Positions 107 through 42,622 of a DNA stretch of 64,000 bases are shown here, one piece after another. How positions within the stretch are numbered: position 1 is the first letter of the stretch; every line of letters starts with the position of its first letter. Position numbers and translations under genes: made by a program. The stretch comes from Nitrospirota bacterium (GTDB lineage: Bacteria; JACPQY01). The DNA lies in assembly GCA_016180645.1 (NCBI GenBank), contig JACPAV010000008.1:1-64000 (forward strand), in the 5' to 3' direction. Under the pieces are notes generated by a model. The model worked only from the letters and a program-made list of their open reading frames with translations, was not told where the DNA came from and did not search any database.

Positions 107-3100
107 ACAAGAGCGTCATGCGCCATGGGTCATGCGTCATGAGCGATGGAGATGTCCGAAGTATTCGTAGGGGAGCATCTTCAGATGCTCCCTCTATTCG
201 GGAGGGTCTAAAGACCCTCCCCTACGTTCTGAAGGGTCTAAAGACCCTCCCCTACATCGCTCTCCTGCTGCTCCTTGCCCCCTCCTGCAACCGAGGACCC
301 CAAACGGCCGATGAACGAGGCTTGTCCATGCAGACCGCCCTGCCGGTCTCGCCGGAAGCGGCGGCGGCCCTCCTGACCATCTCCGAGGCGGACGGGCTGG
401 CGATGGACGTGCAGGTCAACGGCATCCAGGCCGCCTCGGGCGCCTCCATGGGAGTCCGGGCAGGCGTGCGCGGAGGTGTAAGAGGCGGAGTCAGAGGCGG
501 GGTACGAGGCATTCGAGTGCGGTCCGGCGTGATGCCGGCCGTACTCTCGACATTGTCGGTGGACAGTACGTCCGCGATGGGAATGAGAGTGCGGAGACAG
601 GCCCCCGGCGGCTCCGAAGATTGTAGGGGAGCATCTTCAGATGCTCCCTCCGAATCGGCCATACGCCGTAGGGGAGCATCTTCAGATGCTCCCTCCGAAT
701 CGGGCGGATCTAAAGATCCGCCCCTACGTTGCTCCGCACTTCGCACTTCCCCGGAGGAAGAAGCCGAAGTCACCTTCGCACTCGAATCCGACAAACCCGT
801 AACCATTCCGTCGGAGGTCCTGATCGCCGCCCAAGAACCGCCTCCGGTGCAGCCGGCGCCCGATCTCTTCACGGTGATGCGGAAACCTTTGGTGACACTC
901 CGCGTTCGGCCAAAGAGCAGCCCGGAAACGCCCCTGATCGAGGCCAAGGCATCGCTGGACCCCGCTACCACATCAGCGGGGGGCACGGCCTCCGTGCAGC
1001 CCAACGCGGAGGACGTCGAACTGGTAGACTCCGACGGCAACGGTACTTCGTCGCTTATGGAGGTGGCCGTACTCGTAACGAAGGGCCTCCCGCTGGATCA
1101 GGCGGTCCAGATCGCCAACGACCCCACTTCGGAACTGAAGCCCACGGCGGAGGAGGTGAAGACGGCCTTCACGGTCATGGCCGCGAAGCTGGAGCAGAAG
1201 GCGGCCGCCGATCTGAAGGGTCAGGGAATGGAGGTCGAGGCGCCGAAAATCGACGTGGAGACGCTCGATGTCACGCCGCCGGACACGGCGCTGAGCGCCG
1301 TGAGTGGCCAGTCGCCAGTGGTCAGTGGCCAGTCGGTCGCAAGCGGAGAAGAAATCACCTTCACGTTCACCTGTACCAAGCAAGACTGCACATACGTTTG
1401 CGACCTGAGCGGGCCGGCGGGGGCGTTCAAATCGAAGACCTGCGCGACTCCATTCGTCCTCACCACGCCCGGCGCGTCCGCCCTCGGCGCCGCCTCGGCC
1501 GAGTTCACCTTGCGCGTGACCGCCTCCGATTCCATGGGCAACCGCGACACCACCCCCGCGGAATTCAAATACACCATTCAGGCCCCAAAGGGGGACACGA
1601 CGCCGCCGGACACGGCGCTCAGCGCCGTGAGTGGTCAGTCGTCAGTGGCCAGTGGTCAGTTGCTGGACAAGACAGAAATCACGTTTGCTTTCTCCTGCTC
1701 CGATCCGGTAGCCGCACCCTTTACGGGTGCGTTTTCGGACGCAGGCGTGAAGCCTGCGGCTACCTGCACGTTCCTGTGCAAGCTGGACACCCCCGCCGCG
1801 ACGGGCACCTTTGCGTCCTGCGCCTCGCCTTACACCGCCAAGCCGGATAGGAATGGCGCGTACCACTTCGCCGTGGCGGCGGTGGACAAGGCCAACAACA
1901 AAGATTCGACACCGGCCGAGTTCACGTGGACGGCTGCCTTCACCGGGCCCTCCGTAACCATCAGCTCTCAGCCGTCGGCGGCCAGCGGTTCGACCAGCGC
2001 CACGTTTGCCTTCAGCTCCACAGACACCTCCGCCACGTTCGAGTGCGACCTCGACTCCGGCGGTTATGCCTCCTGTTCCTCTCCCCACTTGATCACTGGA
2101 CCACTTTCTTCCGGCTCGCACACTTTTTCGGTCCGCGCGAAAGACACCGTGGGGAACGCCGGTTCCGCGGCCACGGCCACGTGGACAATCGACCTGGCCG
2201 CGCCCACGGCAACGATCAGTTCCACACCGTCATCCGTCAGCGGGTCCACGTCCGCCACGTTTGTCTTCAGCTCCACCGACACATCCGCCACCTTCACGTG
2301 CGACATCGACAGCGGCGGATACTCCTCCTGCACGAGTCCGAAGACCTACACCGGCCTGTCCTCCGGTTCCCACACCGTAAGCGTCCGGGCCACCGATACC
2401 GCCGGCAATACAGGCACGGCCACCTCCACTTGGACGATCGACCTCACCGCCCCCACGTTCGGCGGCCTCACCTCGGCCACCGGCGCCTCAACAACCCAGA
2501 TCAACCTCTCCTGGTCGGCCGCGTCGGACGGCGTCAGCGCCGCGTCTGCGATCGTCTACACCATCTGCCAATCCACCACGACCGGCTCGTGCGGTTCGTC
2601 GTTCACGACAACCTACACGACGTCCGCGGGAGCCACGAGTTACAGCGTGACGGGCTTGGCGGCCGATACGAAATACTTCTTCGTAGCCCGCTCGGAGGAC
2701 GGCGTGGGCAACCGGGATTCCGGCACCACGGAGGTGAACGCGAGAACGAGAGGCTATGTTTCAAGGCTTGCGTCGGTCAACCCCGGCACCACCGGCCTCC
2801 ATATGTGCGCCGTCCTGAACGACAACACGGTGCGATGTTGGGGCAAGAATACCACGGGTCAGTTGGGCCAGGGCGGCACGAACGACCTGGGCGACGGCGC
2901 GAACGAAATGGGGAGCAACCTGGCGGCCGTCAGTCTGGGATCGGGGCGAACCGCCACCGCGGTCGCGCCGGGATCGCAGCACACCTGTGCGCTCCTGGAC
3001 AACGGCACGGTGAAGTGCTGGGGATCCAGCAGCCAAGGTCAGCTCGGTCAGGGCAACGTGAACAGCCTGGGCGATGGCGCGAACGAAATGGGCGACAACC

Positions 3101-4026
3101 TAACCGCCATCAGCCTGGGAACGGGACGGACGGCCACCGCCGTCGCCGCGGGCGACGAACACACCTGCGCCCTTCTGGACAACGCCACCGTCAAGTGCTG
3201 GGGGGATGGGGCGTGGGGACCGCTTGGGCAGGGCAACGTGAACGATCTGGGCGACGGCGCGGGCGAGATGGGCGACAGCCTCTCCGCCATCAGCCTCGGT
3301 ACGGGCCGCACGGCGCTGGCCATCACGGCGGGCGGCGCCCAAACCTGCGCGCGCCTCGACAACAGCACCGTCAAGTGCTGGGGGTTCGGCGGCCAGGGGC
3401 AGCTTGGAACGGGCGCTGCGAACAATCTGGGCGACGGCGCGGGCGAGATGGGAGACAACCTCTCCGCGATCAGCCTTGGCACGGGCAGGACGGCCACGGC
3501 CCTCGCCACCGGGCACGATCACTCCTGTGTCATCCTGGACAACAGCACCGTCAAGTGCTGGGGCTTCAACGACTCCGGCCAGCTCGGCCAGGGCCACGCG
3601 AACGACCTAGGCGACGGCGGGGGCGAGATGGGCGACAGCCTCTCGGCGGTCAGCCTGGGCACGGGCAGGACCGCCACCGCGCTCTCCCTGGGCTACCGGC
3701 ACACCTGCGCGCTCCTGGACAACGCCACCGTCAAGTGCTGGGGATACAACAATGTGGGCCAACTCGGCCTGGGCCACACCAACAACCTCGGCGACGGGGC
3801 GAACGAAATGGGGGACAACCTTTCCGCCGTGGACCTCGGCACGGGGCGCACGGCCTTGGGAATCGCCTGCGGGAACAACTTCTCCTGCGCCCTCTTGGAC
3901 AACTACACCGTGAAGTGCTGGGGGGGGAACGCCTCGGGGCAGCTCGGCCAGGGGAGCACAAACAACCTCGGCGACGGCGCAAGCGAGATGGGAGACAGCC
4001 TCCCCATCATCAGCCTGACGCCTTGA
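103..4026 (+). CDS. large secreted surface protein with Ig-like, fibronectin III and RCC1 repeats
   Basis: A 1307-residue protein. A hydrophobic segment ending LLLLLAPSC near residue 62 looks like a lipoprotein signal, although the residue at -3 is not ideal. Residues about 115-140 are a VRGG minisatellite. From about 389 to 780 there are four Ig-like modules with paired Cys and VRA.D..GN motifs, then a fibronectin III-like module (about 784-880). From about 885 to the end there are seven repeats of about 60 residues, each with C-x10-CWG and GQLG, i.e. one seven-bladed RCC1-type propeller. Such proteins are normally exported; the ligand is unknown. Three families of non-coding repeats lie in frame (bases 167-255, 623-726, 1301-1345 with 1627-1660, and 1707-1764), so much of the N-terminus is repeat-derived. 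The true start is uncertain because the first 50 residues are largely encoded by repeat DNA. Confidence 0.85.
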   Translation: MNKSVMRHGSCVMSDGDVRSIRRGASSDAPSIREGLKTLPYVLKGLKTLPYIALLLLLAPSCNRGPQTADERGLSMQTALPVSPEAAAALLTISEADGLAMDVQVNGIQAASGASMGVRAGVRGGVRGGVRGGVRGIRVRSGVMPAVLSTLSVDSTSAMGMRVRRQAPGGSEDCRGASSDAPSESAIRRRGASSDAPSESGGSKDPPLRCSALRTSPEEEAEVTFALESDKPVTIPSEVLIAAQEPPPVQPAPDLFTVMRKPLVTLRVRPKSSPETPLIEAKASLDPATTSAGGTASVQPNAEDVELVDSDGNGTSSLMEVAVLVTKGLPLDQAVQIANDPTSELKPTAEEVKTAFTVMAAKLEQKAAADLKGQGMEVEAPKIDVETLDVTPPDTALSAVSGQSPVVSGQSVASGEEITFTFTCTKQDCTYVCDLSGPAGAFKSKTCATPFVLTTPGASALGAASAEFTLRVTASDSMGNRDTTPAEFKYTIQAPKGDTTPPDTALSAVSGQSSVASGQLLDKTEITFAFSCSDPVAAPFTGAFSDAGVKPAATCTFLCKLDTPAATGTFASCASPYTAKPDRNGAYHFAVAAVDKANNKDSTPAEFTWTAAFTGPSVTISSQPSAASGSTSATFAFSSTDTSATFECDLDSGGYASCSSPHLITGPLSSGSHTFSVRAKDTVGNAGSAATATWTIDLAAPTATISSTPSSVSGSTSATFVFSSTDTSATFTCDIDSGGYSSCTSPKTYTGLSSGSHTVSVRATDTAGNTGTATSTWTIDLTAPTFGGLTSATGASTTQINLSWSAASDGVSAASAIVYTICQSTTTGSCGSSFTTTYTTSAGATSYSVTGLAADTKYFFVARSEDGVGNRDSGTTEVNARTRGYVSRLASVNPGTTGLHMCAVLNDNTVRCWGKNTTGQLGQGGTNDLGDGANEMGSNLAAVSLGSGRTATAVAPGSQHTCALLDNGTVKCWGSSSQGQLGQGNVNSLGDGANEMGDNLTAISLGTGRTATAVAAGDEHTCALLDNATVKCWGDGAWGPLGQGNVNDLGDGAGEMGDSLSAISLGTGRTALAITAGGAQTCARLDNSTVKCWGFGGQGQLGTGAANNLGDGAGEMGDNLSAISLGTGRTATALATGHDHSCVILDNSTVKCWGFNDSGQLGQGHANDLGDGGGEMGDSLSAVSLGTGRTATALSLGYRHTCALLDNATVKCWGYNNVGQLGLGHTNNLGDGANEMGDNLSAVDLGTGRTALGIACGNNFSCALLDNYTVKCWGGNASGQLGQGSTNNLGDGASEMGDSLPIISLTP
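167..255. repeat. dispersed palindromic repeat, family R1 (GTAGGGG...CCCCTAC), copy with extra hairpin
   Basis: GTAGGGGAGCATC-ttca-GATGCTCCC is followed by GGGAGGGTC-taaa-GACCCTCCCCTAC at 225, then another GGGTC-taaa-GACCC hairpin ending in CCCTAC at 255. The unit is two stem-loops bounded by GTAGGGG and its complement. It lies in frame inside the surface-protein gene and encodes GASSDAPS and KTLPY. Other copies: 623-726, 60955-61013, 63059-63116. Confidence 0.85.
623..726. repeat. dispersed palindromic repeat, family R1, one and a half copies
   Basis: A half unit (GTAGGGGAGCATC-ttca-GATGCTCCC from 623) is followed by a full unit from 668 whose second hairpin is GGCGGATC-taaa-GATCCGCC, ending in CCCCTAC at 726. 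In frame in the surface-protein gene it encodes RGASSDAPSES twice. The stem sequences differ from the other copies while pairing is kept. Confidence 0.85.
1707..1764. repeat. dispersed palindromic repeat, family R2 (GGTAGCCGC...GCGGCTACC), inside coding sequence
   Basis: GGTAGCCGCACCC-ttta-CGGGTGCG is followed by CGCAGGC-gtga-AGCCTGCGGCTACC. It has the same two-hairpin layout as R1 but with GGTAGCC edges. It is in frame in the surface protein, where it interrupts a region between Cys residues. Other copies: 10078-10133, 23195-23249, 26729-26783. Confidence 0.8.
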
Positions 4027-28384: not shown

Positions 28385-28498
28385 CGGAGAGGGTGGGATC
28401 CTGAAACGGCAATCCTGCCGTTTCCCAGCATCCCTGTGGAGGTCGCACATCCAGTGCTCCCTGAAGATCTCTCCGCTTGACTTCGCGGACTTGTCAAT
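28385..28498 (-). repeat. downstream unit ending in a copy of the tRNA-Ser 3' end
   Basis: Read on the minus strand, this 114-nt unit directly follows tRNA-Ser(CGA) and ends ATCCCACCCTCTCCG, the 3' end of that tRNA (T-arm 3' strand, acceptor strand and discriminator). It contains a perfect 9-bp hairpin GAAACGGCA-ggat-TGCCGTTTC (28403-28424). It has no 5' acceptor strand of its own. The equivalent unit at the other locus is 42502-42622. Confidence 0.75.
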
Positions 28499-28584
<86 letters not shown>

Positions 28585-28665
28585 AAATGTGCGCCTGACG
28601 GCGCGAGGCCATCCTGGCCTCGATGGTGCGCGACCGCACCGTCCTGGCTGGTCACGCACCTCTCC
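28585..28665 (-). repeat. upstream structured unit beginning with a copy of the tRNA-Ser 5' end
   Basis: On the minus strand this 81-nt unit starts GGAGAGGTGCGTGA, identical to the first 14 nt of the adjoining tRNA, then CCAGCCAGGACGG and three perfect back-to-back hairpins: GGTGCG/CGCACC (28625-28640), GAGGCCA/TGGCCTC (28605-28621) and GCGCC/GGCGC (28591-28604), ending ATTT just before the tRNA. There is no anticodon arm or 3' acceptor strand. Related units: 42198-42305 and 42306-42412. Confidence 0.75.
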
Positions 28666-41220: not shown

Positions 41221-42162
41221 GTGGAGCACCATCACCACCCCCGTCTGGAGAACCACGATCCCGATTCCGACGAGGCGGCATGCAAGCCTCGGGAGCAGGT
41301 TTCCACCCGCCTCCTTTGGATTGTAGGCATTTCGGCCGCCATGATGGTGGTTGAAATCGTCGGCGGCCTGCTCTCCAACAGCCTCGCCCTGCTCTCCGAC
41401 GGATTCCACATGTTCACCCACGTGGGTTCGATTCTCATCAGTTACATTGGAATCCTCGTGGCCACTCGTCGGGAATCCGAGAACCAAACCTTCGGCTACT
41501 GGCGCGCCGAAATTCTCTCCGCCTTGTTCAACGGCGTGACGCTCCTGCCGATTGTCGGATACATCGTTTATGAGTCGATTCAGCGCTTCAGGCATCCCGA
41601 TGTCGCTCACGTCAACGCCAAAGTGAGCCTGGCCATCGGGGCCGCGGGCCTCGCGGTCAATCTCGTCGGCGCCCTGCTCCTTCACCACAAGCACGAGGGC
41701 GACCTCAATGCGCGCTCGGCCTTTCTCCATCTTTTGGGCGACATGTTCTCCTCCGTCGGCGTGGTCGTCGCAGCCATCATGATCATGTTCACGGGATGGG
41801 ACCTCCTGGATCCCCTCATGAGCCTGGCCATCGGTTTCATGATCCTCCTCTGGTCGGGGCGCCTCATTCGCGAGTGCGTGGGGATTCTCCTTGAATCGGT
41901 CCCGAAAGGAATTCGTGTTCCGGACGTTCGGGAAGCCATTCTCAATGTCGGCGCCGTGCGAGAGGTCCACGATCTCCACATCTGGCAGATTACCAGTGGA
42001 ATGCCGATGCTCACCTGTCACGTGGTGGTCGATGACATGCCCCTGGCCCAAAGCGAGAGCGTCGTGAAGGATATCCATACGCTGCTCGATCGCCGCTACG
42101 CCATCTCCCACTCGAACATCCAGGTGGAGTCCGTTGCGGCGACGCCGCCCCCTACAGGTTGA
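41221..42162 (+). CDS. cation diffusion facilitator (Zn/Co/Cd-type exporter)
   Basis: 313 residues: a His-rich N-terminus (EHHHHPRLENHDPDSDE), six predicted membrane helices, metal-site residues in LLSDGFHMFTHVG (helix 2) and FLHLLGDMFSSVG (helix 5), and a cytosolic ferredoxin-like C-terminal domain (VREVHDLHIWQITSGMPMLT). This is the CDF exporter pattern, moving divalent metal out of the cytosol by proton antiport. The GTG start at 41221 lies 7 nt after GATAAT, so a leaderless mRNA is possible. Not obviously part of the chemosensory operon. Confidence 0.92.
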   Translation: MEHHHHPRLENHDPDSDEAACKPREQVSTRLLWIVGISAAMMVVEIVGGLLSNSLALLSDGFHMFTHVGSILISYIGILVATRRESENQTFGYWRAEILSALFNGVTLLPIVGYIVYESIQRFRHPDVAHVNAKVSLAIGAAGLAVNLVGALLLHHKHEGDLNARSAFLHLLGDMFSSVGVVVAAIMIMFTGWDLLDPLMSLAIGFMILLWSGRLIRECVGILLESVPKGIRVPDVREAILNVGAVREVHDLHIWQITSGMPMLTCHVVVDDMPLAQSESVVKDIHTLLDRRYAISHSNIQVESVAATPPPTG

Positions 42163-42197: not shown

Positions 42198-42305
42198 GGA
42201 GAGGTGGCCGACCAGCCATGGACGGCGCGGCACTTGCCGACTCAGGTCGAGCAGGATAGCGAGACAAGAGCAACGGCAAGTGGCGGAGCGAGGCCAAGTA
42301 ATTTG
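42198..42305 (+). repeat. first upstream structured unit with tRNA-Ser 5' end
   Basis: A 108-nt unit. It starts GGAGAGGTGGCCGA, the first 14 nt of the tRNA downstream, then CCAGCCATGGACGGCGCGG and a stem CACTTGCCG (42231-42239) with CGGCAAGTG (42274-42282), ending AAGTAATTT. It lacks the anticodon and T arms. Tandem with the unit at 42306. Confidence 0.75.
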
Positions 42306-42412
42306 GGAGAGGTGGCCGAGCGGCCAGCCACGGAAGGTGCGGCACCTGCCGCAAGAAAGCCGAGCGTGACGCGAGGCAGTGCCAACGGCAGGTCAGCGAG
42401 GCCGGGTAAATT
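42306..42412 (+). repeat. second upstream structured unit with tRNA-Ser 5' end
   Basis: A 107-nt diverged copy of the preceding unit. It starts GGAGAGGTGGCCGAGCGG, then CCAGCCACGGAAGGTGCGG and the stem ACCTGCCG (42344-42351) with CGGCAGGT (42386-42393). Relative to the first unit a T-A pair became C-G, i.e. pairing was kept. It ends GGGTAAATT just before the tRNA. Confidence 0.75.
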
Positions 42413-42501
42413 GGAGAGGTGGCCGAGCGGTCGAAGGCAGCCGCCTGCTAAGCGGCTGGGCTGAGAAATCGGTCCCGTGGGTTCAAATCCCACCCTCTCC
42501 G
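42413..42501 (+). tRNA. tRNA-Ser(GCU)
   Basis: Acceptor GGAGAGG/CCTCTCC, discriminator G; anticodon stem GCCGC/GCGGC with loop CTGCTAA giving anticodon GCU (reads AGC/AGU); long variable arm starting TGGGCTGAGAAATCGG; T-arm GTGGG-TTCAAAT-CCCAC. 89 nt, CCA not encoded. Flanked by two upstream and one downstream partial copies. Confidence 0.95.
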
Positions 42502-42622
42502 TACATGGATGTACGGCCCTTGAAGATGCCGGGAGGGTCAGGGCGACCCGGAAGGCTGCGGAAAGGGCCGCGGAAGTGAACCGAAATGCGGGAATGCAAT
42601 CCGTTGAATCCCTCCCTCTCCG
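42502..42622 (+). repeat. downstream unit ending in a copy of the tRNA-Ser 3' end
   Basis: A 121-nt unit that follows the tRNA directly. It begins with a small palindrome (GTACATGGATGTAC spanning the tRNA end), contains GGGTCAGGGCGACCC and GCGGAAAGGGCCGC hairpins, and ends AATCCCTCCCTCTCCG, close to the tRNA 3' end. Counterpart of 28385-28498. Confidence 0.7.

Follow-up and report, generated by a model that had tools for sequence, protein, structure and literature searches.

Units carrying copies of tRNA ends flank tRNA-Ser(GCU) in a Nitrospirota bacterium and resemble traces of tRNA-targeted insertion

The Islander survey has described the tDNA-fragment signature of tRNA-targeted genomic islands, with fragments of both the 5' and the 3' type and integration sites that include the anticodon loop and the T-loop/junction (PMC4383910). 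Fragments of the 5' type are rare in this set (159 of 3919), and candidates of less than 2 kb are rejected (PMC4383910). A second system with copies of tRNA ends is that of the rtT repeats of the E. coli tyrT/tyrV operon (RF00391, rttR), which lie downstream of the tRNA, with a period of 178 nt in strain MG1655; each unit closes with 16 nt copied from the tRNA 3' end and also encloses 10 nt of this end in inverted orientation. In MG1655, we found three copies of the 3' end downstream of tyrV, at +175, +353 and +531, all within rtT repeats; in each unit the 10-nt inverted stretch is GGGGAAGGAT. The E. coli tRNA-Tyr locus showed no mini 5' unit, its sole upstream 5' match being the second tRNA-Tyr gene. 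A third point of comparison is provided by the REP/REPIN repeats, which are nested palindromes of small size, dispersed and in some cases arranged in tandem.

The window, i.e. the whole 64,000-nt stretch of DNA that was analysed, belongs to the genome of a Nitrospirota bacterium (G000; 4.7 Mb, 65 contigs), and coordinates are window positions unless a contig is named. Comparison within the phylum was made with one other genome, that of Nitrospirae bacterium NC_groundwater_665 (G001), which belongs to a different genus. Three units fill the spacer around tRNA-Ser(GCU), between a cation-efflux-type gene (end at 42162) and a radical-SAM-type gene (start at about 42668), both labels being a reading of the translations. 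The tRNA is intact (42413-42501, forward strand, like the three units; found by ARAGORN and matching Rfam RF00005 with 59.4 bits). Unit 1 (42198-42305, 108 nt) lies upstream, unit 2 (42306-42412, 107 nt) between unit 1 and the tRNA, and the 3' unit (42502-42622, 121 nt) downstream. As stated in the original prediction, both upstream units open with the 5' end of the tRNA, unit 1 with nucleotides 1-14 (42198-42211, 14/14 identical, beginning at the mature +1) and unit 2 with nucleotides 1-18 (42306-42323, 18/18 identical). The prediction needs correction in that these copies are of unequal length; both end where the head of a palindromic repeat, CCAGCC, starts. The repeat occupies 42212-42282 in unit 1 (head at 42212-42230; arms CACTTGCCG at 42231-42239 and CGGCAAGTG at 42274-42282) and 42324-42393 in unit 2 (head at 42324-42342; arms CACCTGCCG at 42343-42351 and CGGCAGGT at 42386-42393). 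Both heads are exact matches to a motif that is dispersed in the genome, CCAGCCANGGANGGNGCGG, and the arms, which are complementary in each unit, are accompanied by an inner hairpin. Similar tails follow, each placed before the next GGAGAGG: 42283-42305 in unit 1 (GCGGAGCGAGGCCAAGTAATTTG, of which the stretch from AGCGAGGCC on is also the tail of unit 2) and 42394-42412 in unit 2. The two units share 83 identities over 114 columns.

The 3' unit consists of an interior (42502-42606), which resembles the unit found after tRNA-Ser(UGA) of G001, and of the predicted copy of the tRNA 3' end, which terminates at the discriminator base (42607-42622). This copy, AATCCCTCCCTCTCCG, matches the last 16 nt of tRNA-Ser(GCU), AATCCCACCCTCTCCG, at 15/16 positions. 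The interior also contains an inverted stretch, GGGAGGG (42531-42537), which taken alone was no better than chance. The folding z-score was unusual for unit 1 (-3.7) and weak for unit 2 (-1.6), and the 3' unit showed no excess folding (+0.4). In an Rfam search of the region, only the tRNA passed the gathering score.

A stem pair that is T-A in unit 1 is indeed C-G in unit 2, and this compensatory change had been taken as a sign that the fold is selected. The paired stem of the two units is part of a nested palindromic repeat (CCAGCCATGGATGGTGCGG...) dispersed in the genome. Its head had 35 exact matches in G000 and, when up to two mismatches were allowed, 64 matches versus 24 for the reversed pattern. 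Among 30 exact copies of the repeat (tandem copies being counted as if unrelated), the arms matched their own partner at 7.43 of 9 positions, versus 6.32 of 9 when arms were swapped, with a maximum of 6.73 in 1000 shuffles. The part of the claim that concerns covarying stems is thus borne out, but not the part that concerns selection for an RNA linked to the tRNA: the covarying repeat is present at no fewer than 30 places, mostly distant from tRNA genes, and the 3' unit does not fold more than expected. Because the stem belongs to a dispersed repeat with covarying arms, the compensatory pair is uninformative on tRNA biology in particular, and we rejected selection for a tRNA-specific RNA fold as its cause.

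The CCAGCC repeat shares with REP/REPIN elements its dispersed palindromic structure, and Y1 transposase genes exist in both genomes (7 in G000, 8 in G001). It differs from them in that its arms are variable in sequence yet complementary, and in that the CCAGCC head was not seen when the flanks of the 15 Y1 transposase genes were read by eye; on this ground we rejected RAYT genes as the source of the repeat. We also considered whether the right arm invariably repeats the tRNA flank in inverted form, and discarded this idea, which is true for Lys in both genera and false for the Ser(GCU) units. Elsewhere in the window, short palindromic repeats at 188-259 are of a kind also present around a small Y1-transposase gene (C5:35110-35430, L139), and a tandem repeat of 180/360 bp with 73-74% matches (2855-4017) probably corresponds to a repeat protein.

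We then took a census of end-fragments (at least 14 matches, on the same contig) for the 44 tRNAs of G000 that lie outside two large tRNA arrays, scanning 1.15 Mb around tRNAs out of the 4.7-Mb genome and using reversed tRNA sequences as a control. Real tRNAs yielded 20 end-fragments and reversed tRNAs none. Nineteen of the 20 were in the integration configuration, i.e. with 5' fragments upstream and 3' fragments downstream, in the tRNA's own orientation; the remaining one was a cross-match to the copy of another serine tRNA. The arrangement set out in the original prediction is real and recurrent, and is seen at about one quarter of the tRNA genes of this bacterium. In the material analysed here, units lie at Ser, Lys, Gly, Pro and Cys tRNAs, on both sides. 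A companion in the window is tRNA-Ser(CGA) (28499-28584, reverse strand), with a copy of nucleotides 1-14 upstream (28652-28665), followed by the repeat head, and a 3' copy (28385-28399) in a downstream unit (28385-28498). Two degenerate copies, the one upstream of Ser(GGA) and the 3' copy of Ser(GCU) itself, fall under the census cut-off and were found by eye or by repeat search. The two arrays (C25:62346-67783 and C59:21594-25649; L049, L050) hold about half of the 99 predicted tRNA genes, many of them low-scoring or unusual, and are possibly carried by a mobile element.

The distances of the end-fragments were bimodal, 13 lying at 68-202 nt and 6 at 1.5-16.8 kb. The distant group comprises a displaced 5' half (nucleotide 1 to 37-39) at Met, Gln, Arg and Leu(UAA) and a 3' part at Thr and Pro(GGG). 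At least three of these fragments delimit islands with an intact tyrosine integrase (PF00589): Met (nucleotides 1-37, 16.8 kb), Gln (nucleotides 1-39, 7.9 kb) and Thr (nucleotides 27-72, 5.8 kb). At Arg (nucleotides 1-39, 3.0 kb) there is a short integrase-like remnant that Pfam did not recognise. The near and the far groups are linked by the mini-unit of Ser(UGA) in G000, which contains a perfect 37-nt 5' half with the same end point as the islands. It may be added that four of the six distant fragments are 5' halves (contigs C6, C8, C21 and C24; L213, L214, L215 and L218), that in the corresponding islands the integrase or its remnant, where present, lies directly upstream of the tRNA 5' end, and that the 3' half of tRNA-Pro(GGG) (G000:C11:10530-10615, L039), located 4.1 kb from the intact gene, has its T loop split by a palindromic insert of 40-odd nt.

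As in Islander islands, an intact tRNA is thus accompanied by displaced end-fragments on the correct side and in the correct orientation (19 versus 1, control 0), and the tandem arrangement, the anticodon-loop and T-loop/junction sites and the occurrence of both 5' and 3' fragments are found here as well. The difference lies in the size of the units (70-210 nt) and in their lack of an integrase gene, this being present only in the full-size Met, Gln and Thr islands. Units of 70-210 nt would never be listed by Islander since the survey drops candidates below 2 kb.

Eight 3' units could be aligned, with a mean column identity of 67%; they have a paired element, GGGAT..ATCCC, in which both arms show changes. 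Their interior is common to Ser, Gly and Pro tRNAs, while each unit bears the end of its own tRNA. A covariance model built from these units retrieved seven sites at tRNA 3' ends in G000 (six tRNAs) and one in G001, all eight being the sequences from which the model was made. It also disclosed a new non-tRNA site (C31:29358, E = 3.7e-12), bordered at either end by AAATC, which is a T-loop-like core, and a weak match after a tRNA-Met (E = 0.008). The Ser(GCU) 3' unit, which is outside the alignment of the model, was not among its matches. The interiors held stretches complementary to the cognate tRNA end, more so than to tRNA ends taken at random (p of about 1.5e-4 over the eight units), though in single units, including that of Ser(GCU), the inverted copy was mostly not significant.

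This is the part of the system for which rtT is the nearest described counterpart, alike in layout and unrelated in sequence. The direct copy of the 3' end is present in both cases, and the inverted copy has support when the 3' family is taken together, not for Ser(GCU) alone. The RF00391 model, which does match E. coli, gave no match in G000 and only a sub-threshold one in G001 (E = 0.86); with nothing besides the tRNA above threshold in Rfam, we discarded the idea that the units belong to a known RNA family. Furthermore, a single E. coli tRNA (Tyr) was examined, whereas here Ser, Lys, Gly, Pro and Cys tRNAs and both sides are concerned. As judged from sequence, the 3' units have the rtT layout, and may have a similar origin, but do not belong to the rtT family.

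In G001, units were found at Ser(CGA), Ser(UGA), Lys(UUU), Pro(GGG) and Cys, with inserts differing from those of G000. The check in sister genomes proposed with the prediction thus gave a mixed answer: Ser(CGA) and Ser(UGA) have units, and tRNA-Ser(GCU) itself was not found in this assembly, which is 84% complete. Ser(CGA) and Lys have kept units in the two genera alike, and the set of unit-bearing tRNAs differs between them. At Ser(CGA) of G001, a clean CCAGCC repeat splits the D loop of a 37-nt 5' half, and at Pro(GGG) the tRNA half is interrupted at the D-loop position by another palindrome (L173). A 5' part with a palindrome at the D-loop position was also observed at Leu(GAG) of G001 (L212), in this case downstream of the tRNA, which breaks the usual configuration. 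In public genomes, a search for the motif CCAGCCANGGANGGTGCGGTAC gave a single locus, that of the sister genome. In other phyla, 2 of 58 tRNAs at tRNA-Ser loci had a copy of their 3' end no more than 300 nt away, in each case next to Ser(GCU) (L061 at +237, L082 at +110); the L082 unit has a near-identical second piece in its genome, at a contig end.

Taken together, we consider it rather probable that the units are tRNA-targeting insertions in miniature or decayed form, and that their palindromic repeats occupy tRNA-loop positions. They show the tDNA-fragment signature, with 5' fragments starting exactly at +1 upstream, 3' fragments reaching exactly the discriminator base downstream, and an intact tRNA. 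Mobile DNA would insert into the tRNA gene and restore the end that it breaks, leaving the displaced fragment behind; recombination would take place in loops, the D or anticodon loop for 5' fragments and the T loop for 3' fragments. The full-size islands of G000 share this signature, and three of them have an intact tyrosine integrase. The small units, of about 0.1 kb, would be miniature non-autonomous relatives of such elements, moved in trans, or their deletion remnants. The presence of two upstream units at Ser(GCU) would imply two or more events in succession. CCAGCC-type palindromic repeats would settle later, at loop positions of non-functional copies, and copies ending at nucleotides 14-21 would be longer ones cut by such an insertion, sometimes with loss of the rest, since a repeat is seen to split the copy in the D loop of Ser(CGA) in G001. 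The interior that the 3' units have in common, together with their single non-tRNA copy, would favour mobile miniatures. Three observations speak against insertion. The mini-units, too short for a gene, contain no recombinase, and circles of about 100 bp would be hard to recombine. A shared interior joined to a cognate tRNA end is not expected from a fixed attP moved between tRNAs. Finally, no full-size T-loop island with ends matching the 3' units was found.

An alternative that seems improbable is that the units are co-transcribed with the tRNA and give rise to small RNAs, or guide processing of the precursor, as for rtT RNA, the end copies acting as decoys or as alternative partners of the acceptor strand. 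The E. coli rtT units, with their 16-nt direct and 10-nt inverted copies of the tRNA 3' end, match the 3' unit in layout, and a predicted fold of the whole region pairs GGAGAGG of unit 1 with CCTCTCC of the 3' unit; the retention of a paired GGGAT..ATCCC despite changes on both sides, and of units at Ser(CGA) and Lys in two genera, would also fit. On the other hand, the unit-bearing tRNAs differ between these genera, copy ends and inserts are variable, the 3' unit of Ser(GCU) lacks excess folding and no Rfam family other than tRNA reached the gathering score in the region.

Casposon-like transposition, in which a transposase makes staggered cuts, one in the T loop and the other at the 3' end of the tRNA, would make the copied end a target-site duplication and would account for the use of any tRNA by the same interior. 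There are reportedly papers on tRNA targets in the casposase literature, and the 3' duplications are 15-17 nt long and tRNA-specific, with a shared interior. Yet 5' duplications vary from 14 to 39 nt, the non-tRNA copy on C31 shares just AAATC at its ends, and tyrosine-integrase islands with the same signature are already in the genome, and we hold this explanation to be quite unlikely. Slippage or unequal crossing-over that duplicated parts of the tRNA gene, later invaded by palindromic repeats, would suit the common head and tail and the near-equal length of the upstream units, but is very improbable, as it fails to predict the exact mature ends, the 3' interior common to different tRNAs and the restriction of 5' copies to the upstream and 3' copies to the downstream side, and is disfavoured by the census.

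Returning to tRNA-targeted insertion, we tentatively put forward, as a possibility that we rate clearly below even, that the units belong to an overlooked and widespread class of mobile elements of about 0.1-0.2 kb. Such elements would insert at loops of tRNA genes, make good the lost 5' or 3' end by a copy and hold the same end, inverted, in a hairpin; the E. coli rtT repeats and the L061 and L082 units would be of the 3' kind. Should the units be tRNA-targeting elements in miniature, surveys of islands have overlooked them by dropping short candidates, and a natural origin is at hand for the rtT repeats of E. coli. Should they be retained as RNAs instead, the tRNA precursors of this phylum would bear an unrecognised processing signal.
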